Below the pieces are notes generated by a model, which saw only the letters and a program-made list of their open reading frames with translations, had not been told where the DNA came from and ran no database searches. A DNA stretch of 55,983 bases, from the NCBI GenBank assembly GCA_013332095.1, contig JABENI010000012.1, positions 1 through 55,983 on the forward strand, read 5' to 3'. A program made the translations under genes and the position numbers. Positions 3,001 through 51,937 of the stretch are shown in pieces. Origin of the DNA: Candidatus Bathyoplasma sp. NZ. GTDB taxonomy: Bacteria; Bacillota_I; Bacilli_A; MAG-NZ. Position 1 is the stretch's first letter, and each line of letters starts with the position of its first letter.

Positions 3001-5044
3001 TAAATGTTGCACTTACTTCTTCTGCCTTGTTTTCTGCTTTATCGATTGCATTATATTTTACTACTACATCTCTTCCTGCTTCTAATTCTGTTCTGGCTTC
3101 TGTTAGATCTATTTCTGTTTCTAAATCATCTGCTTTAAAGTATGTTACTTCTATGTCATCACTTATATCTCCATATATATTATCATTTGCATTTGTTGTT
3201 GGTGCTTTCCAATCTGAAACAACAGCTATACTTACCTCCTCATCTGTTACTGCCTCTATTTCTGGTGGGGTATTATCAGCTGTTGTAAATGTTGCAGTTG
3301 TTTCTGCATAACTTGATGATTCCCCATATACTGAATATTTTACTACTACCTCTCTTCCTGCTGCTAATTCTGTTCTGGCATCTGTTAGATTTATTAAAGT
3401 AATTCCATTTTCTTTATAATAACTTACCCATATCTTATCAGTTACGTCTCCCATCATATTATCCTGTGCTGTTGTTGGTGGTGCTTCCCATCCTGAAAGA
3501 TCTTCTATTACTGCTCCTTCTACTGGTTCTATTACTAGTGTTGTAATCTCTAACCTAACCCAAAATGTATATTCACGGGCTTTATTTCCTGCTGCATCAC
3601 TTACATTATATCTTAATAATACCTCTTCTCCTTCTGTTATTGCTCTTTTTGCTACCTCTAGATCTCCCAAAGACGAACCAAGTTTTGAATAGTATGTTAT
3701 ATCCACAGTTAATCCTTCATCTACATTATCTGTTGCTGTTGCTGTTAGTGGTATCCAACTTGAAACATCATCTATTTCTAAATATGAAGTATAACTGTAA
3801 TAACTGGGATTGATAAATACTTCTCCTAATACAATTCTTGGTGCTGTATTATCTATTGCTATAAATGTTGCATTTACTTCATCTGCCGCATTTCCTGCTT
3901 CATCACTTACATTATATTTTGTTACTACACTTCTTCCTCCATATAATTCTGTTCTTGCTGTTGATAAATTTATCCATGTTCCATCTGCTTTAAAGTATGT
4001 TACTACTATATCATCACTTATATCACCATCTATATCATCATTTGCTTTTGTATTTGGTGCTTTCCATTTTGAAACAATATCTATACTTATCTCTCCACCT
4101 GTTATTTCCTCTATTTCTGGTAGAGTATTATCATCTGTTGTAAATATTGCACTTACTGCTGCTGCATTTCCTGCTCTATCAATTACACTATATTTTACTA
4201 CCACATCTCTTTCCTCTTTTAATTCTTTTCTTGCTGCACCTAAATCTGCTAATTCGATTGTTCTGTCTGCGTTGAAGTATTTTACTACTATATCATCACT
4301 TATATCTCCATCTATATTATCACTTGCTGTTGCTATTGGTGCTGTCCAATTTGAAATATCTTCTGTATATAATAAACCTCCTGCTACTGGCATTATTTTG
4401 GGTAAGATATTATCATCTGTTGCAAATGTTGCAGTTACTACTGTTGCATAATTACCTGCATAATCTCTTGCATCATATTTTACTACGACATCTCTTCCTT
4501 CTCTTAATTCTGTCCTTGCTTCTGTTAAATTTATCGATGGTGTTCTACCATAATATCCAATTGAAGCAAATGCCTCATCTGCTTTATAGTATTTTCCATT
4601 AACTGTAAAATCTGGCTTTATATTATCTGTTGCAGTTGCTAATGGTGCTGTCCAATTTGAAATATCTTCTGCATTTACTAATTCATCAGATACTGCTTCT
4701 ATTATTGGTTCTATTTCATCCCATACTACAATTTTAATACTTGTTTCTCCAGAATCACTCAATACTCTTACTATATTATTCCCCTTTATTTGTAAAGATA
4801 AATACGGGGTTAATATCATTGGTTTTGATGTCTTATATACACTGATTTCATTGATAAAAACTTCTTTTATTTTCCCGCTATCTATTCTTACCTGATAACC
4901 TTGAGTATGACTATATCCACTACTAGTAATTGCTGCATTTACCTCTGTTTCTATAAATCTTGGTGATACGAGCGCTACTATTGTTAATGTTACTATCATT
5001 AATAAATAGCATGTTTTTTTTAAAACTTTTGTTATTTCTTCCAT
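1..5044 (-). CDS. Giant secreted Ig-like repeat surface protein (C-terminus beyond window)
   Basis: One reading frame stays open from the ATG at 5044 to the window edge, about 1,681 codons, so the C-terminus is missing. The start follows a strong ribosome site (AAGGAGGAAG). Residues 1-38 form a signal peptide: charged start, hydrophobic core, and a VNA-A cleavage motif. After a short N-terminal domain the protein is a chain of about 13 modules of 90-110 residues. Each has a W-x-AP motif, a DNIDGDIS-like motif, YFKADG, ARTEL, and VVKYNVSDxAGN, resembling DUF5011/HYR-type bacterial Ig-like domains. Near positions 240-1180 three modules of another Ig-like type (TLTITFSEEI, YTATYTVVEGTSE, ITYADKxGN) are inserted. 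I infer a cell-surface adhesin or stalk protein. No anchor is visible because the end is cut off. Function beyond this is unknown. Confidence 0.85.
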   Translation of the reverse strand, partial: MEEITKVLKKTCYLLMIVTLTIVALVSPRFIETEVNAAITSSGYSHTQGYQVRIDSGKIKEVFINEISVYKTSKPMILTPYLSLQIKGNNIVRVLSDSGETSIKIVVWDEIEPIIEAVSDELVNAEDISNWTAPLATATDNIKPDFTVNGKYYKADEAFASIGYYGRTPSINLTEARTELREGRDVVVKYDARDYAGNYATVVTATFATDDNILPKIMPVAGGLLYTEDISNWTAPIATASDNIDGDISDDIVVKYFNADRTIELADLGAARKELKEERDVVVKYSVIDRAGNAAAVSAIFTTDDNTLPEIEEITGGEISIDIVSKWKAPNTKANDDIDGDISDDIVVTYFKADGTWINLSTARTELYGGRSVVTKYNVSDEAGNAADEVNATFIAIDNTAPRIVLGEVFINPSYYSYTSYLEIDDVSSWIPLTATATDNVDEGLTVDITYYSKLGSSLGDLEVAKRAITEGEEVLLRYNVSDAAGNKAREYTFWVRLEITTLVIEPVEGAVIEDLSGWEAPPTTAQDNMMGDVTDKIWVSYYKENGITLINLTDARTELAAGREVVVKYSVYGESSSYAETTATFTTADNTPPEIEAVTDEEVSIAVVSDWKAPTTNANDNIYGDISDDIEVTYFKADDLETEIDLTEARTELEAGRDVVVKYNAIDKAENKAEEVSATFTLNAAPGDNTAPIIEQVAGSSVFTSEPYGWSTASVSGWTAPPTKANDNIDGDISDDIVVTYFKADGATSIDLTVARTELYGGRSVVVKYNVSDAAGNVATEVATFTAVDNTRPVIEVEGYGYEEYDWSRNWWEGLEINLEIEDVSSWTAPTIVTVTDNVEEGITASIRYYYVKDFVYPISNLATVRRELAAGKLILIEYTAHDGSDGGWIPMTWKKIYVKTETIAPVVIEPVEGAVIDPADVAEWKAPPTTAYDNLVGDVTDRIYVDYYNADGTTLVPHTRDRYVTEETYVNAARTELAAGRDVVAGYYVILAGNKVEIFATFTTTDDIIPPEIMPVVGDSIYARNVSEWTAPDATAIDNIDGDISDDIEVTYYKEDGITLINLTDARTELGAARDVVVKYNISDKAGNVAAEVSATFTAVPADNIAPVIDAVNGATMNTEATTTWTAPPTIASDDIDGDITYKIWVSYYKANGRTGIKLDEAKTELTAGRDVVVKYKITDNARNTAEVSATFTIDDNTSPEIEAIADRVMSLGDVSEWTAPDATVTDNIDTDFTATATYFKADDLDTEISLAAAIIELEAGNDVVVKYNATDVAGNHAVEVSAIFTMDNTLPTLPTVTIKSSSGTKFAKVRDIITVDITASENIQTPIVTIAGEDAIVTGTEGGLIYYATYEVTTETSEELAKINITYVDMVGNEGAQQTSTTDDSTVTIDTSVPVILYVRINSNNENDTLAKVGDEISLTLMTKGQENLDTITVTIAGETVAVVGDRYPGTYKATYTVVEGTSEGAVLFNITYADEAGNAGLAVTAPTDESGVIVDKTPPPLPTVTIESNNQNGEELAKVGDIITLTITFSEEIETLTVIIAGETVTATKSGNIYTATYTVVEGTSERKAGINITYADKVGNTATITETTDESEVIVDKTVPVINSVDGATVYTEDADIWRAPYTPANDNKDGDISANIVITYFKADQTTLLANLAMARTELRAGNSVVVKYNISDEA
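130..4690 (-). repeat. Coding tandem modules of about 270-330 bp
   Basis: The WxAP codons recur near 4660, 4349, 4050, 3752, 3482, 3210, 2885, 2555, 2262, 1952, 1655, 1380 and 170. That is a period of about 100 codons, with similar but not identical DNA. The gap from 1180 to 240 holds the second Ig-like module type. Such repeats recombine easily and break assemblies, which may explain why the contig ends here. Confidence 0.8.
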
Positions 5045-5822: not shown

Positions 5823-7154
5823 TCAGCTTCTTTTTATTCTAAACTGATTTGCATAGATATTCATTTTATTTTTTCTAGCAAATCCTATTAAAGTTACTCC
5901 ATATTTTTCTGCTAATTTAATCGCTAGTGATGTCGGTGCACTTTTAGAGACAATAATTTTAATTTTCGTAAAAATGCATTTTAAAATCATTTCACTCGAT
6001 ATTCGTCCACTTATCAACAACACTCCATCAACACTAAAATTATTGTTTAAAATATTTCCGATAATTTTATCAACAGCGTTGTGTCTACCGATGTCTTCTT
6101 TAAAAATTTCAATATCTCCGACTTGATAAACGGCACCATGCACTCCACCAGTTGCCTTAAACAAATCACTTTCATCAATTAATTTTTTCGTTAATTTTAA
6201 AATAATCTCTTTTGTTGTTATCACAGAATCATCTAACATCTCAATACTCAGTTGATCCAATTTTTCATGGAATTCAGTCCCCGTACCACATCCTGAAAAC
6301 AATATTTTTTCTTTTGATGCTCCGACAAAATTACTATCACTTTTAACGTATACTAGATTATCTTTAAATTCAATATTTTTTATTTCATCGATATTGTTAA
6401 TAATGCCCATACTTTTTAAGTAACCAACTACTAAATCTGCTAAATCAGTAGGAATAGTTAAAATAGTCAATAATTTTTGGTCGTTTAAATAAATAGTTAG
6501 GGGATATTTTTCTACCACTAAATCACTAGTTTTAACTTCTACTTCACCGACTAATTTAGTAATTTCAACTTTTTGATAATTTTTCACATCGATTAAATCA
6601 GTTATTTGATTGATGTTATAAAATAAATCAGCATTTTTAATTTTTGGTAAAAGATCTAAATCAATCAGATAACTTTTCCCTAAATTAATCAATCGATACA
6701 GACTAGTTATTCTATCTAGATAATCTGAATGAAAATACTTTAAACAATCTTTATGATAAACGCCATGAAAAGGCTCGATATAACCGTTGTTTATACTAGC
6801 ATAAATTTGATATTTTTCACTTAAATTATTGATATATTTAAAATATTCTACACTGAAATTAGGCATGTCAGCAGCCAGTAAATATAAATAATCACTTTGA
6901 CAATTTTCTAAGGCTACTCTTAATCCTTCAGTCGGACCTTTAAATTTATGTTGATCTGTTAAAGTTAGACAATTTAAGTTTTTATAAAATTTTGGGTTAT
7001 TAGTCACAACTATTACTTCTTCAAAATATTTATTCAATTCCTTAATTTTTTTATGGATTAAAAATTGATCATCCTCTTTCAAAAATTCTTTATTAAAAGG
7101 CATTCTTTTACTTTCTCCACCTGCTAAAATCGCCACACTTTTAATATTAAGCAT
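5823..7154 (-). CDS. MobA-FdhD fusion: molybdenum cofactor guanylyltransferase and formate dehydrogenase sulfurtransferase
   Basis: The 443-residue protein joins two enzymes that are usually separate. Residues 1 to about 190 match MobA, with the nucleotide-binding loop LAGGESKRM followed by a Lys. MobA attaches GMP to molybdopterin. Residues from about 200 match FdhD, which moves sulfur from a cysteine desulfurase to the molybdenum cofactor of formate dehydrogenase. The FdhD part keeps GGVHGA, EDIGRHNAVDKIIG and GRISSEM. The cysteine loop reads SGCGTGTE, with one Cys where E. coli has CGVC, so only the first Cys is kept. The start overlaps the fdhA stop by 8 bases with no clear ribosome site, which points to translational coupling. 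Both domains serve the fdhA product just upstream. Confidence 0.9.
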   Translation of the reverse strand: MLNIKSVAILAGGESKRMPFNKEFLKEDDQFLIHKKIKELNKYFEEVIVVTNNPKFYKNLNCLTLTDQHKFKGPTEGLRVALENCQSDYLYLLAADMPNFSVEYFKYINNLSEKYQIYASINNGYIEPFHGVYHKDCLKYFHSDYLDRITSLYRLINLGKSYLIDLDLLPKIKNADLFYNINQITDLIDVKNYQKVEITKLVGEVEVKTSDLVVEKYPLTIYLNDQKLLTILTIPTDLADLVVGYLKSMGIINNIDEIKNIEFKDNLVYVKSDSNFVGASKEKILFSGCGTGTEFHEKLDQLSIEMLDDSVITTKEIILKLTKKLIDESDLFKATGGVHGAVYQVGDIEIFKEDIGRHNAVDKIIGNILNNNFSVDGVLLISGRISSEMILKCIFTKIKIIVSKSAPTSLAIKLAEKYGVTLIGFARKNKMNIYANQFRIKRS

Positions 7155-9804
7155 TAAATTTTATCGCACAAACTTTTAATTCTGGTATCCCGCAGTATTG
7201 ATCAGCCGCTGTATTGGTTAGTACGTTAGCTCCTTCAGCAAAATGGAAAGGCATAAAACAAACATCATCTTGTAAAATTTCTTTTACTTTTACTCTAACT
7301 TTAATCGACCCTCTTCTTGAAGTTACGGTAGTCATTTCTCCATCAGTTAAATTATATTTAGTAGCAGTAAAACTGTTAATTTCGATATAATTTTCTTTTA
7401 CTAAAGTATTAATTCCTTTAGTTTTATCAGTCATTGTTCTTGTATGATATTGATATAGTGTTCTTCCGGTGGTCATCGTAACAGGATATTCTTTATTCGC
7501 TACTTCTGCTGATTCTAAATATTCTACTTTACTGAACAATGCTTTTTTTCTCGTGAATTTTTCTTCGTATAAATACTTAGTTCCTGGATGATTTTTGTCC
7601 GTACACGGCCACTGTAATCCTTTTATTTTAAGTCTATCGTAATTAATTCCACTATAAATTGGGGTTAAACTAGCAATCTCATCCATAATTTCACTTGGTG
7701 TTTTATTCTCTTGATAACCAAATACCGTCATTAATTCTTGTAAAATCATATAATCTGGTTTTGAGTTTCCGACCGGTTCAATCGCCTTATTTACCATTTG
7801 AACTCTTCTTTCAGTATTAGTGAAAGTACCTTCTTTTTCAGCAAATGAAGATGCTGGTAAAACAACATCGGCATATTCTGCTGTTTCTGTTAAAAACATA
7901 TCTTGGACAACTAAGAAGTTTACTTTTTCAAACGCCGCTTTAACATGATTAGTATCAGGGTCTGATACTATTGGATTTTCTCCCATCACATAAGCAAATT
8001 TAACAGATCCATCAGCCATTCCTTCAATCATCTCGGGAATTCTTATTCCTGGAGTGCTATCAATTTTAACATCCCATGCTTTCTCAAATTTAGCTCTAGC
8101 TTCATCATTAAATACTTTTTGATATCCAGTAAGGTTATTTGGTAACCCTCCCATATCACATGCTCCTTGAACGTTGTTTTGTCCACGAAGGGGATTTATC
8201 CCAGCATTCTTTTTACCAATATTTCCCGTAATAAGTCCTAAATTACACAGTGATTTAACTCCGTTAGTACCGTTAGAATGTTGGGTAACACCCATTGCAT
8301 AGTATATTCCAGCACTTTTAGCACTGGCAAATATTTTTGCTGCTTCAATAATATCTTCTTCTTTACAACCACAAATTTTTGCTGCTTTTTTAGGAGTAAA
8401 GTCAATTATTCCTGTTAAAAATTCGGCATATCCTTCTGTCCGACTCTCAATATATTTTTGATCTGCTAATCCATTGTGGTAGATATAATTTGCCATTCCG
8501 TTATACAGAGCAATATTTGTTCCTGGCTTAATTTGAACAAAAACATCACTGTGTTTAACCAGATCAATTTTACGAGGCTCGGCAACAATAATTTTTGCCC
8601 CTTTTCTTTTAGCTTGTTTGATAAAGTAACTTAACACTGGATGGGTATCTGTGGTATTTGAGCCTGTAATAAACAAGCAATCATTATTTTCAATTTCGCT
8701 AATACTGTTTGTCATTGCACCTCTACCTAAAGTAGCTGCCAACCCGGCAACTGTCGCAGAGTGTCACAATCTAGCGCAGTGATCGATATTATTCGTTTTA
8801 AAGACTTGGCGAAACATTTTTTGAAACAAATAATTTTCTTCGTTAGTACATCTAGCAGATGAAAATCCAACAAAACTATTGCTTTCACCTTTAAATTCTA
8901 AATATTTTTGATTGATTTTAGCGTAGGCTTCTTCCCAAGTAGCCTCGACTAACTTACCATTTTTTCTAACTAACGGTGTCGTTAATCGATCTCGGTGGTT
9001 AATGAAATTAAATGCATATTTTCCTTTTACACACAACAATCCTCTGTTTGACCCCTCTTCATTGGCATCAACTCTCACAATTTTCCCTTTGTGAACAACT
9101 AACTCCATCTGACAACCTACACCACAATAGCTACAAGTTGTTCTAACTTTATCAACATCCCAATTACGGTACTTATCCGCTGTTTTGTTCAACAGTGCTC
9201 CTGTTGGACAAACACTAACGCAACTACCACAACTTACACAACCTGCATCTTCAAAATTGTCATTTCCGAATGAAACGTATGTTTCTTGACCACGGTTTTT
9301 AAAGCCTAGAGCTCCAACACCTACTTGTTCTGAACAAATTCTTACGCACTTTCCACACAAAATACATTTATCAGGATCAATTTCAAAAAAATGATTTGTC
9401 GCATTTTTTGCTATTGCTTCTTTTCTCACTGAGTAAATAGGTTCAGCATCAACATCGTATTCAAAACTGTAGTCTTGCAGTTTACATTCACCACTTTTAC
9501 CACATTTCATACAATCATTAGGATGACCTGCCCATATTAACGATAAATTAATTTTAAGAGCGATGCGTACTTTTTCGCTTTCTGTATTAACTACCATGCC
9601 CTCTTTTACTTCTAAATTACAAGAAGTTAAAAGTTTATCTGTTCCTTCTACTTCTACTATACACAATCTACAACTAGTCTGTTTGCTCAATCTGTCATCA
9701 TCACAAAACGTCGGAATTTCAATCCCTAACTCCCGAGCTGCTTTTAAAACTGTAGTGTTCTCTTCAACTTCAATCTGATTTCCGTTTATTATCAATTTAA
9801 TCAT
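7147..9804 (-). CDS. fdhA: Formate dehydrogenase catalytic subunit, selenocysteine-containing
   Basis: The 885-residue protein is interrupted by an in-frame TGA (8764-8766) that I read as selenocysteine 347. The context HCARL-U-HSATVAGL matches the active site of E. coli FdhF (CCARV-U-HGPSVAGL). Domains in order: NuoG-like [2Fe-2S] ferredoxin (Cys34, 45, 48, 62), a His/Cys cluster motif (HPNDCMKCGKSGEC), two 4Fe-4S motifs (CILCGKCVRIC and CVSCGSCVSVC), the molybdopterin Fe4S4 domain (CSYCGVGC), then the catalytic and dinucleotide-binding domains. It oxidises formate or reduces CO2. The start at 9804 is chosen because ferredoxin homology begins there and AAGGTAGGT lies just before it; an in-frame codon at 9855 falls inside nuoF. 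It forms a complex with the two upstream subunits. Confidence 0.95.
8728..8766 (-). promoter_or_regulatory. SECIS hairpin of fdhA
   Basis: Directly after the UGA, GTTGCC (8751-8746) pairs with GGCAGC (8740-8735) around the loop GGGTT. The loop begins 18 bases after the UGA, the same spacing as in E. coli fdhF, whose loop is GGTCT. This is the expected recognition site for SelB. Confidence 0.8.
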
Positions 9805-9812
9805 CTTCTTAC

Positions 9813-11669
9813 CTACCTTGTAATAATTGCCCCAACTGGGCATCTCGTAAAGCAATCTTTACATAAAATACATTTATCTTTTTCAATTACATGAAGTTCT
9901 TTTCTTTCTCCGGCGATACAACTGACTGGACAGTTTTTAGCACATAGAGTACAACCAATACACTTATCAGTGATAAATAATTCACTTATTAAACCATCAC
10001 AAACTCCTGCTGCACATCTTTTTTCTTCGATATGCTCAAGATACTCATCTTTAAAATATCTTAAAGTTGATAAAACTGGATTAGGTGCAGTCTGACCTAA
10101 GCCACAAAGCGAAGTACTTTTAACCATCTTACATAATTTTTCTAACTCAACTAAATCAGCGATAGTTGCCTTGCCATCAGTAATATCTGCTAACATTTTG
10201 TGAATAGCAGCTGTCCCTTCCCGACAAGGTGTACATTTCCCACACGATTCATCAACGATAAAGTCCATATAAAACTTGGCGATATCCACCATACAGTTGA
10301 AATCATCTAAAACAATCATTCCTCCTGAACCCATCATACTACCTAGTTCAGTTAATCGATCAAAATCAACGATTTCATCCAAATGGTCTTTTGTTAAACA
10401 GCCCCCAGATGGACCACCTGTTAAGACTGCTTTAAATTCACGTCCCTTAGTTACTCCACCACCGATTTCTTCGATAATTTTTCTCAGCGTAATTCCCATG
10501 GGAACTTCGATTAATCCCGTATTTTTAACTTTTCCACCTAAGGCAAACACTTTGGTCCCCGATGATTTTTCGGTACCTATTTTTTTAAACCACTCCGCAC
10601 CGTTTAAAATAATTTGGGGAATCACCGCGTAAGTTTCAACATTATTTATAATCGTTGGCGCATCCCACAATCCTTTATTTGCTGGAAATGGCGGTTTAGT
10701 TTTAGGCATTCCACGGTCTCCTTCAATCGAGGCTATCAAAGCCGTTTCTTCACCACATACAAATGCCCCTGCTCCTAATCTAATTTCCATATCATAGGAA
10801 AATTCTGTCCCAAAAATATTTTCTCCTAACAACCCTTCGGCTCTCGCTTGCTCAATCGCAATATTTAATCTCTCTACTGCATGAGGATATTCAGCGCGGA
10901 CGTACACATAACCATAATTTGCCCCAATGGCATAACCACCAATTGCCATCGCTTCGATAATCGCATGGGGGTCTCCTTCTAAAATACTTCTATCCATAAA
11001 TGCTCCGGGGTCTCCCTCATCGGCATTGCATAATATATATTTTTGTCCGGTATTGTTTTTAGCAAAACTCCATTTCAGACCGGTGGGGAATCCACCTCCT
11101 CCACGTCCTCTTAACCCAGAAGCTTTGACAACTTCAATAACTTCATCTGGACTTTTAGTCAAAGATAACTCTAATGCTTGATACCCTTTTGTTCCGATGT
11201 ATTCATCAATCGACTCAGCGTTGATAAAACCACAATTTCTCAGGGCAATTCTCACCTGATTATCATAAAAAGGGATATCTTTAGTTTTTTCAACTTTTTG
11301 TTTGGTCAAAGGATTGACATACAACTTTTTAGTATAAATTCTATTGTTTAACAGATGTTCAGTTACTATCTCTTTGGCCTCCGATACTTTAACTTGCGAA
11401 TAAAAAGTATCATCGGGCATAATCTTTACGATTGGACCTTTTTCACAAAATCCTAAACATCCTGTTCCGTGTACTTCAACATCTAAATTTAATTCAGCGA
11501 TTGCTTCTTCTAAATTTGCGACAATTTTTTTTGATTTACTAGACATACAGCCAGTACCAGTACAGACTAAAACTTCACGTTTTTTAAGATCAATCTTCCC
11601 TTTTCTATTTTCAATTTTGTCTTTGGTTTGCTGATACTTTTTCATTAACTCCGCTTTTGATTTTATCAT
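9813..11669 (-). CDS. nuoF: NAD(P)H-oxidising flavoprotein subunit, NuoF/HydB/HylB-like
   Basis: The 618-residue protein has a thioredoxin-like [2Fe-2S] domain first (CTGTGCMSS and GCLGFCEKGP). The NuoF core follows, with the nucleotide and FMN motifs GLRGRGGGGFPTGLKW and ADEGDPGAFMDR, then the 4Fe-4S motif ESCGKCTPCREG. The C-terminus carries two ferredoxin motifs (CIGCTLCAKNC and CILCKDCFTRC). This layout is that of HydB-type subunits of NAD-dependent, often electron-bifurcating, hydrogenases and formate dehydrogenases. With fdhA beside it, the partner is formate dehydrogenase. It passes electrons between NAD(H), iron-sulfur clusters and FdhA. Whether ferredoxin is a second partner cannot be seen. 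The start directly follows the nuoE stop and has AAGGAGTG before it; stop to fdhA start is 8 bases. Confidence 0.92.
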   Translation of the reverse strand: MIKSKAELMKKYQQTKDKIENRKGKIDLKKREVLVCTGTGCMSSKSKKIVANLEEAIAELNLDVEVHGTGCLGFCEKGPIVKIMPDDTFYSQVKVSEAKEIVTEHLLNNRIYTKKLYVNPLTKQKVEKTKDIPFYDNQVRIALRNCGFINAESIDEYIGTKGYQALELSLTKSPDEVIEVVKASGLRGRGGGGFPTGLKWSFAKNNTGQKYILCNADEGDPGAFMDRSILEGDPHAIIEAMAIGGYAIGANYGYVYVRAEYPHAVERLNIAIEQARAEGLLGENIFGTEFSYDMEIRLGAGAFVCGEETALIASIEGDRGMPKTKPPFPANKGLWDAPTIINNVETYAVIPQIILNGAEWFKKIGTEKSSGTKVFALGGKVKNTGLIEVPMGITLRKIIEEIGGGVTKGREFKAVLTGGPSGGCLTKDHLDEIVDFDRLTELGSMMGSGGMIVLDDFNCMVDIAKFYMDFIVDESCGKCTPCREGTAAIHKMLADITDGKATIADLVELEKLCKMVKSTSLCGLGQTAPNPVLSTLRYFKDEYLEHIEEKRCAAGVCDGLISELFITDKCIGCTLCAKNCPVSCIAGERKELHVIEKDKCILCKDCFTRCPVGAIITR

Positions 11670-12300: not shown

Positions 12301-12954
12301 TTATTCAACTGTATAACTTTTAAAATTTTTCGCTAAACAATAGTCAGCAAATAAATTTTTTGCTAATTTAATATCTTCTTCTAGTTGTGCTACTCCGTTA
12401 AAAGAAACAATAAAGACTAAGCAATTTTTGGTATTTTTAGTTATCATCGTTCTTTCAGTATCACTAGTTGTAGAACCGAATGGTCCTTTTAAGTCTTCGT
12501 ATAGCGGAATTTTTTCCACGTTCAATTTGCCTCTACCTATTCCATAATATTCATCATAATCGTTACCAAGACGAATAAAAACATCACCGATTATTTTATC
12601 ACGGTCTAAAACTGCTACTGATTTTTGAACTTTAATCGATAACACATTTCCGACATCTACTAAATTGTTGACTCGGTAAAGATCGTTTCCTTTTACCAAT
12701 CTACGATACAGCGATTCCACTGCTAGACGATACCTACTAGGATCTTTTCCATAACTTTTATAAGCGTTTCTACCACTTAAAATATTAGGAATTTGAAGAC
12801 AATCAGCAAGATCGTATTTTTCTGCTATTTCTTTTTCGGTACTAGTTATCAAATCATCTATTTTGGGGTTAGCAAATACTTCTGCTGCAAATTCAATTAC
12901 TGCTACCGCAAAATTTTTTGATTTTAATTTTATTTCTTGATCTATTATTACCAT
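12301..12954 (-). CDS. Free-standing B3/B4 tRNA-binding domain protein
   Basis: The 217-residue product matches the B3/B4 domain of the phenylalanyl-tRNA synthetase beta chain, found alone in many bacteria. Recognisable parts are the middle SRYRLAVESLYRRLVKGN and the VNNLVDVGNVLSIK motif, followed by GPFGSTTSDTERTMI. In the synthetase this domain edits mischarged tyrosine; free-standing members are thought to act on tRNA or amino-acyl groups, but roles are mostly unproven. The start at 12954 has AGAGGGATAAG before it; an upstream in-frame codon at 13038 lacks one. It is divergent from a MocR regulator, which may control it. Confidence 0.75.
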   Translation of the reverse strand: MVIIDQEIKLKSKNFAVAVIEFAAEVFANPKIDDLITSTEKEIAEKYDLADCLQIPNILSGRNAYKSYGKDPSRYRLAVESLYRRLVKGNDLYRVNNLVDVGNVLSIKVQKSVAVLDRDKIIGDVFIRLGNDYDEYYGIGRGKLNVEKIPLYEDLKGPFGSTTSDTERTMITKNTKNCLVFIVSFNGVAQLEEDIKLAKNLFADYCLAKNFKSYTVE

Positions 12955-13097
12955 CTTATCCCTCTTATAAATTAACCTTACTGTAATACTACCATATTTA
13001 TTATTAAAAATAAATTGCTTTTTTTTGTCTGAAACCACAGCATTTTAAATCTGTTTGTGTTAAAATTAACTAATCGTTATATCTTAAGGAGTACAAA

Positions 13098-14375
13098 ATG
13101 TACACAACTACTGCTAAAAAAAAATATTTAAATTTATATCGGCAAATTAAAAAACAAATTTTAAATCAACAGTTGAAAGAAAACGAAAAACTTCCTTCTA
13201 TTAGGAAACTTTCCCATGATTTGAGCGTTTCAACTACAACGGTAATCAATGCTTATGAACAATTACTATCTGAGGGCTACATCAAAAGCATCTCCAAAAG
13301 TGGTTTTTACGTTGAGAAAATCTCTACCGGAATTATTAAAAATTTTAAAGTTGAAGAAGTAGAGATAACTGAACAAAATTTTTTAAACGAAAATATTACG
13401 AGCGATTTATTCAATTTTAATCTCTGGGGAAAATATTTAAATAAGTCGATTAAAGACAACGATCAACTGTATTCTACTTCTAAAAAAAATGGTGAAGATC
13501 TGTTAAAACAAGAAATTATTAAATTTTCTTTTAAACATCGCGGCGTAAACGCTACTAAAAATCAAGTTATTATCGGCAGTAGTACAAATCACTTACTAAA
13601 AGTACTATTTAATTTATTGCCAGATCAAAAAATTGCTTTTGAGCCCAAAGGAAATTTAAAGATTTTAGCCAATATTAAAAGCAGTTGTAACTACCTTGAA
13701 CTGCCTTTTAAAAACAACCTTCAAAAAATTATCGATAACAATGTCAGTTTAATTTACACTACTCCTAGTCATCAATATCCTAATGGTAACATTTTAGATA
13801 TCAACAGTAGATTAGTCTTAGTCAATTGGGCCAATCACCAAAACAGTTATATTATTGAAGATGACTACAATAGTATTTTAAGATACAGTGGTAGCCCTAT
13901 TCCTAGTTTACAAAGTTTAAGCAGTCAATCTGTTATTTACATTTCTTCTTTTTCCAACCTGTTATTTCCCTCTTTAAAAATTAGTTATATGATTTTACCG
14001 ATTGAACTTTTAAAAAGTTTTGAAGAAAAAAAACAAAAATATCAAGTTACTGTTTCGAAGTTAGAACAGTTAACTTTGGCTAATTTTATGAAAGATGGTT
14101 ATTTAGAAAAACATTTAAATAAAATAAAAAAAATATATCTTAAAAGAAGCAATATTTTAAAGCAACTCCTCCAACAATTAAATTTAACAGTAATTAATCC
14201 GCTATCAGGAACCAATATCATTGTTAAAAATTCTTCTATCGATTTGTTTATTGAAGCTGCAAAAAAAATTCAGATTAATTTAATTAAAATATCGAACGAC
14301 GAACTTTTGTTTAATTTCAGAGGAATTAAAAACAGCGACTTATTAGCCACTGTTAATGATATTTTTAAAATTTAA
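13098..14375 (+). CDS. MocR/GntR-type regulator with aminotransferase-like domain lacking the PLP lysine
   Basis: The 425-residue protein starts with a GntR winged helix (residues 1-75; LPSIRKLSHDLSVSTTTVINAYEQL), a linker, then a fold-type I aminotransferase-like domain. The substrate and cofactor pocket is largely kept: TPSHQYPNG and EDDYNSILRY. In the Schiff-base motif, however, SFSK of MocR proteins reads SFSN: residue 287 is Asn (codon AAC). PLP cannot bind covalently, so the domain either senses another ligand or binds PLP weakly. AAGGAG precedes the start. It is divergent from the B3/B4 gene, a common arrangement of regulator and target. The 3' end overlaps the opposing HEPN gene by 11 bases. 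Confidence 0.88.
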   Translation: MYTTTAKKKYLNLYRQIKKQILNQQLKENEKLPSIRKLSHDLSVSTTTVINAYEQLLSEGYIKSISKSGFYVEKISTGIIKNFKVEEVEITEQNFLNENITSDLFNFNLWGKYLNKSIKDNDQLYSTSKKNGEDLLKQEIIKFSFKHRGVNATKNQVIIGSSTNHLLKVLFNLLPDQKIAFEPKGNLKILANIKSSCNYLELPFKNNLQKIIDNNVSLIYTTPSHQYPNGNILDINSRLVLVNWANHQNSYIIEDDYNSILRYSGSPIPSLQSLSSQSVIYISSFSNLLFPSLKISYMILPIELLKSFEEKKQKYQVTVSKLEQLTLANFMKDGYLEKHLNKIKKIYLKRSNILKQLLQQLNLTVINPLSGTNIIVKNSSIDLFIEAAKKIQINLIKISNDELLFNFRGIKNSDLLATVNDIFKI

Positions 14376-15015
14376 TAATTAGTGATTTGGGAATTAGCAG
14401 TTGACTGCTAGTTCTGTTTATTCTTTTGATAAAAGTTTCGCTTAAAGAATAAGGTAATAATTTGATTAAGTTAGCTAAAACACCTACTAAATCGTCAGTA
14501 GTTAAATCATCAATTTCAAATCTGTCATAACTTTTAAAATCTAAAATAAAATTGTGGTGAAAAACGGCATTTCTAAACTTTTTGATCGCTGTTACTCTTC
14601 TCAAAAACTCTTTTTTAGAAAGCGAAAATGAAAAAATTTCATCAATCGTTTTTTCATCTATTTTTTTATACAGTTCAATCAATCTATGAAAGGTACTGTG
14701 CTCTAAATAATAAAATAAATTTTCATTTTGGCGAAGTTTTAAATCTTTTGCTTGAAAATTATTACTCAATTGAGCTCTTAAATAAACTTCATACATCGTT
14801 AAATAATAATAAATATCTCTTCTTAATCTCAAATCGTATTTATAAAGATCGCGAATATCTTCACTCGTAACCTGCTGTTTGTGAGCAGCTATAACATAGT
14901 AGACATTTCTTATTCTTTTAACACCCTTTAAATTTAAATAAAGGATAAATTGTTCTTCATCGGTAATGGTTATTCTTTTTTTAAACCACGCTAACTCTGC
15001 TATTTTATCAAACAT
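14365..15015 (-). CDS. Abi-like HEPN-domain protein
   Basis: The 216-residue helical protein resembles the Abi-like (Abi_2/AbiD/F) family. It has the early RIRNVYYVI and the DLYKYDLRLRRDIYYYLTMYEVYLRAQLSN region. Near residue 150 is the motif RNAVFHH, which fits the HEPN R-x4-H ribonuclease signature. Family members act in phage abortive infection or as toxins. No antitoxin is next to it. Instead it overlaps the end of coaX by 16 bases and has a poor ribosome site, so it is likely co-translated. The C-terminal 11 bases overlap the convergent MocR gene. Role in this operon is unknown. Confidence 0.7.
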   Translation of the reverse strand: MFDKIAELAWFKKRITITDEEQFILYLNLKGVKRIRNVYYVIAAHKQQVTSEDIRDLYKYDLRLRRDIYYYLTMYEVYLRAQLSNNFQAKDLKLRQNENLFYYLEHSTFHRLIELYKKIDEKTIDEIFSFSLSKKEFLRRVTAIKKFRNAVFHHNFILDFKSYDRFEIDDLTTDDLVGVLANLIKLLPYSLSETFIKRINRTSSQLLIPKSLIIKF

Positions 15016-15735: not shown

Positions 15736-16341
15736 TTATTCACCTCTTATTTTTTCAATCACCATACTTATCGGTGTTCCTACTAACCCACTGAAAACTG
15801 CTTCCGCTAAAATTTGTACTCCTAAACCTACAAATAAAAAATTAATAATATTTTGCTGTTGATTTAAAAAGGTAGAAACATTTTCTTTATATCCTAAAAC
15901 ATCTGGATAAAAACCTAATTTAGCTACGAAGTACATCGGTATTATTACTAATAAACTGTGGATAATACTTCCTAAAATATAATAAGTCAACAAGGTAATC
16001 TGTCTATTTTTAAAACCTAATTTTTCTACCATTTTATAAATATCCACTAGAATAAATCCTAAAAGTACTCTTGGTAAAACTGAAACTAAGGGATTGATAA
16101 ATACCGGATCAAACAATCCCGCTGGTTTAGTAATCGCCATTAGTAAAGATACTAATCCGAATACGGTCCCTAAAATAAAACTTATTTTTTTATTTATCGT
16201 GCCCCCAATTAAAACGGGAATGTGAAGTATCGTTATACTCACCACACCAAAAAAACTAATAAATCCTAAATTGGGTGTCAATGCCAATAACAAAATAATC
16301 GCTACTAGCATACTAGTTAACGTTAAGTCTTTTGTCTTCAT
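15736..16341 (-). CDS. ECF transporter substrate-binding S component, probably for pantothenate
   Basis: The 201-residue integral membrane protein has about six hydrophobic segments, as S components do. An N-terminal hydrophobic helix is followed by the LGTVFGLVSLLMA region. It binds a vitamin and pairs with a shared energising module (EcfA/A'/T) encoded elsewhere. The substrate call comes from context: the stop is one base before coaX, the pantothenate kinase. Sequence alone does not name the vitamin. It is 12 bases downstream of the exonuclease gene. Confidence 0.72.
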   Translation of the reverse strand: MKTKDLTLTSMLVAIILLLALTPNLGFISFFGVVSITILHIPVLIGGTINKKISFILGTVFGLVSLLMAITKPAGLFDPVFINPLVSVLPRVLLGFILVDIYKMVEKLGFKNRQITLLTYYILGSIIHSLLVIIPMYFVAKLGFYPDVLGYKENVSTFLNQQQNIINFLFVGLGVQILAEAVFSGLVGTPISMVIEKIRGE

Positions 16342-22189: not shown

Positions 22190-22372
22190 AAATTTAAAAT
22201 CGCCCACCAGTGATTTTTAGTTTAAATTTTTGGTAGGTATACCGGCTAAATTTCATCCTTCACATATCCTTCCCGAGAATTAACTCAGTGGTTTATTTAT
22301 GTGTCGTCCATTTTTACGGTTGCTGGGGCAGCTCAGGTTCTCTGATTCCCTTTATCTCAAATTGAGACCAAA
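22190..22372 (-). promoter_or_regulatory. Cobalamin riboswitch controlling btuFCD
   Basis: On the minus strand the conserved elements occur in order. First AAAGGGAATC, then CTGAGCTGCCCCAGCAACCG (the C-rich core), CCACTGAG, CGGGAAGG, GATGAA, and the B12 box AGCCGGTATACCTACC (22232-22248). After the box, TGGTGGGC may supply the kissing-loop partner. Order and spacing match the Rfam cobalamin class. It lies between the ZIP gene and btuF, with a terminator next to it, and therefore most likely regulates btuFCD by attenuation. Confidence 0.9.
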
Positions 22373-22437
22373 AATTCATTATTAAGTTAAGTAAATACTA
22401 TCCTAATTTATCTAATATGTCAAGTTGTTATATTTTT

Positions 22438-28949: not shown

Positions 28950-28988
28950 AAATAAAAATACCTTTTTAGGTCTTACTAAAAAGGTATA
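28950..28988 (-). terminator. Attenuator terminator in the pyr leader
   Basis: ATACCTTTTTAG pairs with CTAAAAAGGTAT, followed by TTTTTATTTT on the minus strand. It stands just before the pyrB ribosome site and is controlled by PyrR binding upstream. Confidence 0.9.
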
Positions 28989-29029
28989 ATTAACTAGAGT
29001 ACGCAAAATTATATAGTTGTATAGTTATC

Positions 29030-29056
29030 CCTTTTTAGCCTCTCTGGACTAAGTTA
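29030..29056 (-). promoter_or_regulatory. PyrR-binding loop in the pyr leader
   Basis: The minus strand reads TTAGTCCAGAGAGGCTAA (core 29037-29050), an exact match to the PyrR anti-antiterminator loop ARUCCNGNGAGGYU. UMP-bound PyrR should hold this fold and let the attenuator form. Confidence 0.9.
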
Positions 29057-29072
29057 AAGCTTATCCGTTTAT

Positions 29073-32174: not shown

Positions 32175-32768
32175 CTATAATTTATTAGATTTTTTAGTAA
32201 ATTCATCTCCAGATTTCCAGCCACAAGGAACTAAATTACCTTCTGAACCTTTAACTATTGCGTGTAAATTCCTTAAAACTTCTTGAACGTTTCTTCCACT
32301 TTCACTAGGATTAACTGAAATATGTTTAACGATTCCTTTAGGATCAATTATAAACGTCCCTCTCATTGAAAATCCTAATTCTTCATCTAAAACTCCATAC
32401 ATGTCAGAAACTAATAAATTTTTATCAGCAGCATGTGGATGATTTAATTTTCCTAACGTTCCTTGTTGCCACGCTAAATGTGTAAATATGCTGTCAGTTG
32501 ATACCGCAATCACTTCCGCTCCTAATTTTTTAAACCCTGGGTAAAGTTCACCGAACTTTTGCATTTCAGTAGGTCAGATAAAAGTAAAGTCCAACGGATA
32601 AAAGTACAGTACAGTCCATAACCCCTTGTCGATATTTTGCTGTAAAGATACTTTCCCAAACCTTGCTAACCCTTCACCTTCAGGTAAAACTGCTTCCATT
32701 TCAAATAGCGGTGCTTTTTTTCCAATTTTTACTTCTTCGAAGTAAGTTAAATCATCATAATTTTCCAT
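32175..32768 (-). CDS. prxU: Selenocysteine peroxiredoxin (PrxU-type)
   Basis: The 197-residue peroxiredoxin is split by an in-frame TGA (32574-32576) at residue 65. The local context is YPLDFTFI-U-PTEM, which matches the peroxidatic site YPLDFTFVCPTE with selenocysteine for cysteine. It reduces hydrogen peroxide and organic peroxides. Arg at the usual position after the strand (RGTFIIDP) and the C-terminal Cys182 (VPCGWKSGDE) for resolving are present. Selenocysteine forms are known in a few anaerobes such as Eubacterium acidaminophilum. AAAGGAGG precedes the start. No selenium genes are in the window. Confidence 0.92.
32538..32576 (-). promoter_or_regulatory. SECIS hairpin of prxU
   Basis: After the UGA, AAAGTTC pairs with GAACTTT around the loop GGT (32552-32550). 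The loop starts 21 bases after the UGA, close to the E. coli spacing, and begins with GGU as SelB requires. Confidence 0.78.
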
Positions 32769-50542: not shown

Positions 50543-51937
50543 TTATTTTAAAACTGTTAAATTTTCCAGTTTTATTTTTCTAATTACTTTTGTAAGAAAA
50601 ATATAAACAATCGGAATGTAAATAATTTCGCTAACCAATATCCCAATCCACAATCCTTGTTTCCCAAATATAATAATTGTAATCGTTACAAAAAACGGTG
50701 CAAAAAATATCGACTTTACACAACTTGTAACTAAAAATAAGATCGATTTTTTTACAGCAGTTAAATATCCACTAGCATAAATCGAATTTATCCCTAATAA
50801 ACTAACTATACCTAAAGAGATATAAATATATTTTATATCTTTTAATATTGTGGGAGATTCTATAAAAATTTTCGCTACAGGATCAATAGCAAAATATGTT
50901 ATAAAATAAACAATAAAAGTTGTTATAAATATTTTTTTATAGGTGTATGTTAATAAACTTAAACCTTTATCAATATTTCTTTGCTCATAAGTTTTAGAAA
51001 TTATAGATCCCTCACCATAAGTTCCACCGTACAATAAGTTAAAGTAAATATCTGCAAAAAAATTGAATGTTGCATAAACTATAAAATATTCTACTCCTAA
51101 ATATTTAACTATAACGTAGTTAATCACAATCATTGAAAATGTAAAAGACCAAGTGACATAAATTCTCTTAGCCCATTGTAAATTATTTTATAAAACTCTT
51201 TAAAATCAACAATTATTTTCCCAAACAAGAATGTTTTATTCATCTTTAAGACAAAATAATTACTGTTATACAACATAAATATTATACTTGTAACTACCGT
51301 TCCTAATCCAAGACCTAACCCCATATCATATCCGATTACAAATATCATGTTGAAGACAACGTTTCCTACTGAAAATAGTAGATGTCCACCCATTGCATAC
51401 TTAGGATTTCCATCAGCGATAATTAATGTTGAACCAGTATGTCCAATTGCCATACTGGGAAAAGATATTGCTATTAAATTTAAATATGTCAAAGATAATT
51501 CCTTAAATTCTTCGTTTACTACGATAAGATTGCTAATAGGATCATTAATATAATGAAAAAAACATTAATAAAAATATATCAAGGTAATTATTAATATAAC
51601 AAAAGTTGATAAACATTGTGCCTTCACTCTTTCTTTTCTTCCGATTAAATAATTAACTTATATCCCAAGACCCGTTATAATCATAACTGCTATTCCTATT
51701 CCAAACATCAAAATAGGAAAAACTAACATTGCAGTTGCTAAGGCTTCTTTTTCAATAAATAAAACAGCTTATTGTTTTATCTGCTAACTGCATAATACCA
51801 ACAAAACATTGTGTTATTAAAGCAGGAATAACAAATTTTTTGTATAATTTTTTATTAGTTAAATCTGTATCAATTCCATCTGAAAGTTCTTCTTTCTCAA
51901 CATTATTCTTCTCATCAAAATTTATAGTATTTGTCAT
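50543..51937 (-). pseudogene. MATE-family efflux transporter, frameshifted
   Basis: The minus strand carries a full-length MATE sequence in at least four frames. It starts at 51937 behind GGAGG (PALITQCFVGIMQLADKTI), then FIEKEALATAMLVFPI in another frame, then YLNLIAISFPSMAIGHTG, then IVINYVIVKYLGVEYF. Stops at 51752 and in the following stretch, plus a frame change at 51130, inactivate it. Intact members export drugs or metabolites using Na+ or H+. Confidence 0.9.

Follow-up and report, generated by a model that had tools for sequence, protein, structure and literature searches.

Covalent binding of PLP through a lysine counts as a defining feature of MocR regulators: PMC6677901 gives Asp279 and Lys312 as conserved across all of its MocR clusters, and PMC8739950 reports the lysine in all 278 EnuR proteins inspected. 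The locus considered here lies in a stretch of 55,983 nucleotides of contig JABENI010000012.1 of Candidatus Bathyoplasma sp. NZ (the window) and encodes a MocR regulator without this lysine. A literature search judged by titles and the opening of abstracts, with many subscription papers outside its scope, returned no natural lysine-less or PLP-independent MocR.

The gene (Table 1) begins at an ATG preceded by AAGGAG. The best NCBIfam model for its product was PdxR (NF052282; 362.4 bits, cut-off 320), which scored 446.8 bits with the homologue from Mycoplasmatota bacterium zrk6 (hereafter zrk6), and phmmer matched the product over its whole length to Bacillus clausii PdxR (7pq9; 1.1e-67). The AlphaFold model, made from 59 sequences (pLDDT 85.7), superposed on GabR (4tv7) with a Z score of 39.3 and 1.9 Å over 326 residues, and on PdxR (7pq9) with a Z score of 38.4 and 2.1 Å over 332 residues; the phmmer match and these Z scores of 38-39 place a C-terminal fold-type-I aminotransferase domain in the protein. 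Descent and fold make the protein a MocR, and it is not classed here with the PLP-Schiff-base regulators. No second MocR able to take over was found at E<=1e-3 in the window's genome, which is 97% complete in 44 contigs.

Table 1. Coordinates of the regulator gene, its pocket codons and its neighbours in the window
Feature	Position	Strand	Remarks
MocR/PdxR-type transcription factor lacking the PLP lysine, 425 aa	13098..14375	+	Single intact open frame
GntR winged helix-turn-helix, residues 10-72	13125..13313	+	PF00392 49.4 bits, cut-off 27
Asn186 codon, position of GabR Tyr205 (stacks on PLP ring)	13653..13655	+	Alignment
Kept Asp255 and Tyr257, GabR Asp279 and Tyr281	13860..13868	+	Alignment
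Codon AAC, Asn287, position of GabR Lys312	13956..13958	+	phmmer and further alignments
Codon AAA, Lys294, position of GabR Arg319 (PLP phosphate contact)	13977..13979	+	Alignment
Codon AAT, Asn373, position of near-invariant GabR His400	14214..14216	+	Alignment
B3/B4-domain gene, divergent neighbour	12301..12954	-	PF03483 52.6 bits; open frame reaches 13038 from GTG
Divergent gap, 143 bp	12955..13097		Direct-repeat box seen in related loci not matched
Abi_2-like gene, convergent; overlaps the 3' end of the MocR gene	14365..15015	-	PF07751 34.3 bits

The loss of the lysine, first noticed in a sequence-only reading of the locus, was borne out by phmmer and by further alignments, in which Asn287 (AAC) falls on the lysine of GabR (4n0b/4mgr) and of B. 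clausii PdxR (7pq9); the phmmer stretch reads FSNLLFPSLKISYM in the window protein and FSKSLLPGLRISYM in GabR. The internal-aldimine lysine of position 312 (GabR numbering) is absent from the window protein, and because the usual site thus cannot support an internal aldimine, the proposal of that reading that PLP is bound non-covalently, or that another ligand is sensed, is a fair one. Its description of the rest of the pocket as kept was correct for EDDY, TPSHQYPNG, Asp279, Tyr281 and an aromatic residue at 250, and wrong for Tyr205, Arg319 and His400, all of which are changed. Of the nine GabR active-site residues given in Table 2 of PMC6917764, Asp279 and Tyr281 are unchanged in the window protein and Phe250 is Tyr, whereas Tyr205 is replaced by Asn, Arg207 by Lys, Lys312 by Asn, Arg319 by Lys and His114 by Asn, and no window residue aligns with Arg430.

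These changes were set against 120 MocR proteins gathered by their similarity to those of the window and zrk6, a choice that makes the share of lysine-less rows uninformative on MocR at large; GabR, the zrk6 duplicate L031 and L150, which repeats L004, were left out. Loci L022-L030 yielded no MocR row, and for one match set 29 loci (L147-L175) of 45 matches were examined, of which 8 duplicated rows already present and were removed. As a query against genome contigs, the window protein alone retrieved no relative, while an alignment retrieved relatives among the best 80 of 522 matches. Lysine occupied the position in 101 of the 120 proteins, and the remaining 19 carried Thr (6), Ser (6), Arg (5), Asn (1) or His (1). 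The sister of the window protein is that of zrk6 (CP074575.1; locus L002, the same as L031; genome G002), a member of the same family as the window's genome, with 46% identity and Thr at the lysine position. Three of the 100 genomes compared belong to this family, and a full-length MocR homologue was found in G002 only, the other two genomes being 55% and 78% complete. The Thr of zrk6 in the same column, together with the finding of more lysine-less homologues, argues against a chance loss.

In a careful tree of 30 of 121 rows, made without L150 and, among others, the long rows L011, L015, L016, L017 and L018, the window and zrk6 proteins grouped at 100/99 inside a clade of 19 rows (100/100), 12 of them lysine-less and 7 lysine-bearing, so that the loss is shared with kin. 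In most members of this clade the Schiff-base lysine is replaced by Thr, Ser or Asn. At least three changes between lysine and non-lysine fell on well supported branches of the clade, which implies either repeated loss of the lysine or a loss followed by a regain. Two other trees were of a quick type, and the larger of them, made with L150 (L004 repeated) in the 121-row set, forced at least six such changes. The window protein sat on a long branch in the quick and careful trees alike, and its composition is odd. The lysine-less branch was found in records named Clostridia and in the window's own class.

Whether the pocket was altered as a site or has decayed with the rest of the protein can be judged from 43 columns in which at least 95% of the 101 rows with lysine hold one residue. 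The zrk6 protein departs from these at three (312, 319 and 400) and the window protein at five (155, 203, 312, 319 and 400), keeping 38/43; rows with lysine average 0.9 departures, and three or more occur in 7/101. So few departures in the two proteins favour a changed site over general decay, and zrk6, with a few site residues changed and the rest kept, looks from its sequence like a case of changed mechanism. The other lysine-less rows have between 1 and 16 departures, with the highest counts in long-branched rows (L016, 10; L018, 15; L017, 16), and so these rows are not all neat site changes. At single positions, and with kinship ignored, His400 was lost in 12/19 lysine-less rows against 4/101 with lysine, and Arg319 was changed in 7/19 against 1/101, position 319 being Arg in 100/101 rows with lysine. 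Position 279 is Asp in 101/101 rows with lysine and 18/19 without it; position 205 is Tyr or Phe in 96/101 (His in 5/101) and in 17/19, respectively, and the window protein, with Asn186, has no aromatic residue there for stacking on PLP. GabR positions 114, 207 and 430 are variable among the compared rows. The window and zrk6 proteins agree at 62/89 residues over GabR 240-330, at 35/70 in the winged helix-turn-helix and at 40/116 over 331-470, the best conserved stretch being the one around the pocket. Partial decay of the window protein may nevertheless have occurred, since it has more residues changed and a long branch.

The partners of the relatives suggest what a lysine-less MocR may control. 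An ECF S-component gene or pdxS/T was counted as a neighbour when divergent and within 400 bp, which leaves L003, with pdxT upstream on the same strand, uncounted. With kinship ignored, a divergent ECF S-component accompanied 10/19 lysine-less rows against 9/101 with lysine (Fisher 4e-5), and divergent pdxS/T accompanied 0/19 against 45/101 (Fisher 6e-5); a tree-aware test of lysine loss against the ECF neighbour, which had 6 independent pairs, was not significant (median sign-test p 1). The association is also incomplete, 9 of the 19 lysine-less rows having no such neighbour and 9 rows with lysine having one. All 19 neighbouring S-components passed the PF07155 cut-off, and for the eight S-components tried against NCBIfam no model scored above its cut-off. 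PdxU and PdxU2/HmpT belong to PF07155 according to PMC9997740, and the abstract of PMC4860826 reports that HmpT prefers pyridoxamine; the family also includes riboflavin carriers by its Pfam name, so B6 is a putative substrate of the neighbouring S-components.

In zrk6 a PF07155 subunit is divergent to the MocR gene. Two Ser rows (L048 and L058) are divergent to a type I 3-dehydroquinase gene that is followed by ABC ATPase genes, identified by Pfam in L048 and by eye in L058. The MocR homologue at 1288-2610 of L015, with Arg at the lysine position, has an alanine dehydrogenase gene (AlaDh_PNT) as its divergent neighbour and represents another lysine-less lineage with a different partner. Divergent to the window MocR there is no B6 gene, either pdxST or a PF07155 carrier standing in for pdxU, and the B3/B4 gene is found instead. 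The ECF subunit at 15736-16341 was considered as a lost partner and rejected; it was not counted because it passes PF12822 only and adjoins a type III pantothenate kinase gene.

In the search for operators, a box like AAGKGNCAGTTT was seen twice, in direct orientation, in the divergent gap of each of four Thr loci (L033, L034, L035 and L080), with 24 bp between the two starts in 4/4. A matrix was built from boxes chosen by eye in these loci and in L017, each left out when scored itself, and was run over 13 regions, namely 11 ECF-paired loci (including L040, L059 and L103), the window gap and the zrk6 gap; the ECF-paired loci L008, L054, L092, L148, L154, L159 and L162 were outside the scan. 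A single good box lies directly ahead of the start codon in zrk6 (0/200 shuffles as good), and the box is also present in L017 (2/200) and in the lysine-bearing L055 (1/200) and marginal in L059 (0.04). No outstanding box was found in the window gap (p 0.835), L040 (0.96), L010 (0.655), L103 (0.24) or L032 (0.18), and the window gap has two weak inverted repeats and no direct repeats. The double-box pattern, allowing one mismatch over the whole genome, gave 7 matches against 6 in a reversed control, and thus no sign of a trans operator, and a promoter scan did no better than chance, with 8 found against a shuffle mean of 8.0. The window MocR may use another operator, since its recognition helix reads STTT and differs from the S(K/R)TT of L033, L034, L035 and zrk6; that of L080 reads SRNS and that of L017 SQTS. 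The C. glutamicum PdxR box, which was not used in the box analysis, resembles AAAGTGG.

The genetic background of the window protein is one of missing B6 functions. PdxS, PdxJ and the PdxK-type kinase family PF08543 had no match in the window's genome; PF08543 was present in 14/14 control genomes, and its matches in three genomes of the same family were all below cut-off. The window encodes an Ala_racemase_N (YggS-like) protein and the genome encodes a class I/II aminotransferase elsewhere, so PLP is required by the cell, which must either take it up or rely on an unrecognised route; direct PLP uptake is mentioned for Mycoplasma capricolum in PMC9997740. The sole PF07155 S-component found in the genome, with zrk6 as query, lies at 8385-8888 of L140 on contig C7, unlinked to the MocR gene, where a peptidase-like gene diverges from it and an aminotransferase gene is close by; it is possibly a target in trans, or possibly unrelated.

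The reading preferred here, with the case for it about evenly balanced, is that the window protein is an intact uptake regulator of PdxR descent, from a mostly lysine-less clade, that works without a Schiff base. In this clade, where most of the lysine-less members have a PF07155 ECF transporter subunit as divergent neighbour, the pocket would still hold a flat ligand, probably a B6 vitamer, non-covalently by stacking and through the conserved Asp, and ligand binding would alter DNA binding and hence expression of the vitamin uptake gene. The window protein would be a further altered case, in which Tyr205 has become Asn in addition to the changes of Arg319 to Lys and His400 to Asn; given these further changes and the lack of an adjoining transporter, its PLP binding would be weak or absent, and it would probably regulate chiefly its own promoter, or else, in trans, uptake genes at other loci of the genome. 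A more tentative proposal is that the internal aldimine was abandoned in a natural branch of MocR, which would sense a B6 vitamer or other vitamin non-covalently and control ECF vitamin uptake, with Lys312 often lost together with His400 and Arg319, with Asp279 and mostly the aromatic cage kept, and with the window protein as a strongly altered member.

The most durable of the alternatives, doubtful in our view though deserving serious attention, is that the window protein is blind to PLP, selection on its pocket having relaxed once B6 synthesis and the transporter partner were gone, and that it is now a constitutive DNA-binding autoregulator or is being lost. Its main argument comes from PMC8739950, in which EnuR Lys302His is a PLP-free constitutive repressor, a precedent that favours lost sensing over non-covalent sensing. 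Blindness to PLP would also fit the joint change of Tyr205, Pro203, Arg319 and Lys312, the long branch and odd composition, a gap with neither ECF partner nor box, and the unmatched PdxS, PdxJ and PF08543. It is less easily reconciled with a frame that is intact over 425 codons, with the 38 near-invariant columns of 43 that are kept, and with a pocket stretch that is the best conserved part of the comparison with zrk6.

Control of the divergent B3/B4 gene, proposed in the sequence-only reading, is unlikely. The divergent layout speaks for it, and the 143-bp gap is correct if the B3/B4 gene starts at ATG 12954 (residue 29 of the open frame), most strong matches beginning at residues 20-36. A B3/B4 homologue, however, stood beside MocR at 1 of 120 loci (flanks of 1.5 to 7 kb), and this was the window itself, as was the case of 1 among L001-L110. 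In the ten genomes with both a MocR match (E<=1e-25) and a B3/B4 match (E<=1e-40), compared by hand (G002, G014, G024, G025, G035, G036, G042, G046, G047 and G074), the two genes are at least 48 kb apart or on different contigs, and a strong B3/B4 match occurs in 30 relatives, 20 of which lack a MocR match at E<=1e-25. The B3/B4 gene was accordingly rejected as a conserved target, its adjacency being absent at the other 119 loci, and its control by MocR in the window is unsupported; random neighbours in other genomes, the outcome that the sequence-only reading had itself named as refuting it, apply to the B3/B4 part of its proposal.

That PLP is held covalently by another lysine, for example Lys294, is very improbable: Lys stands at 319 in 6/19 lysine-less rows, including window and zrk6, against Arg in 100/101 rows with Lys312, but this position contacts the phosphate in GabR (Table 2 of PMC6917764), at the opposite end of the cofactor from the aldehyde, and 13/19 lysine-less rows have no Lys there.

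Several features of the window apart from the regulator were also recorded. A formate dehydrogenase-like catalytic subunit at 7147-9855 (minus strand) is divided into two ORFs by an in-frame TGA at 8764-8766, in the context DHCARL-U-HSATVAG, which we take to be the usual selenocysteine site of formate dehydrogenase-like enzymes; the subunit is probably a selenoprotein, and an FdhD/MobA-like fusion lies at 5823-7154. A peroxiredoxin (AhpC-TSA) at about 32178-32750 (minus strand), whose listed ORF starts late, has an in-frame TGA at the likely peroxidatic position (FTFI-U-PTE) and is a probable second selenoprotein. A cobalamin riboswitch (22215-22387, minus strand; 82.3 bits) precedes a set of transporter genes of the Peripla_BP_2 and FecCD families, and a predicted PyrR binding site (28951-29064, minus strand; 59.9 bits) lies upstream of an apparent pyrimidine operon. 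Two adjoining membrane-protein-like ORFs in different frames at 50543-51492 (minus strand), neither matching Pfam at 1e-3, read as pieces of one transporter and are perhaps a pseudogene. A tandem repeat of 282 bp in 2.3 copies occupies 3883-4539, near the left contig end.

Lysine-less members with a recurrent transporter partner make the need for a Schiff base in MocR signalling directly testable, and their loci offer candidate genes for taking up vitamins, and for regulating that uptake, where an organism has no recognised B6 pathway.

Among known systems, GabR of Bacillus subtilis resembles the window protein in fold (Z 39), Asp279 and Tyr281, and differs in that its Lys312, Tyr205, Arg319, Arg207 and Arg430 are not kept. 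The EnuR Lys302His protein, described in PMC8739950, is likewise a MocR without the PLP lysine, but it was made by mutation and is a PLP-free constitutive repressor, whereas the window protein is a natural variant. PdxR regulons with pdxST, pdxK and pdxU are described in PMC5320631, in whose main text the word 'lysine' does not occur. The likeness to PdxR (7pq9) extends over the whole length, the fold and the best curated model (NF052282); unlike PdxR, the window protein lacks the Schiff-base lysine and the aromatic residue at 205, has Lys for Arg319 and Asn for His400, and adjoins neither pdxST nor a PF07155 gene. The zrk6 protein shares with it the loss of the lysine (Thr in zrk6) and the changes of Arg319 to Lys and His400 to Asn, but, unlike the window protein, keeps Tyr205, a divergent PF07155 subunit and one operator-like box.
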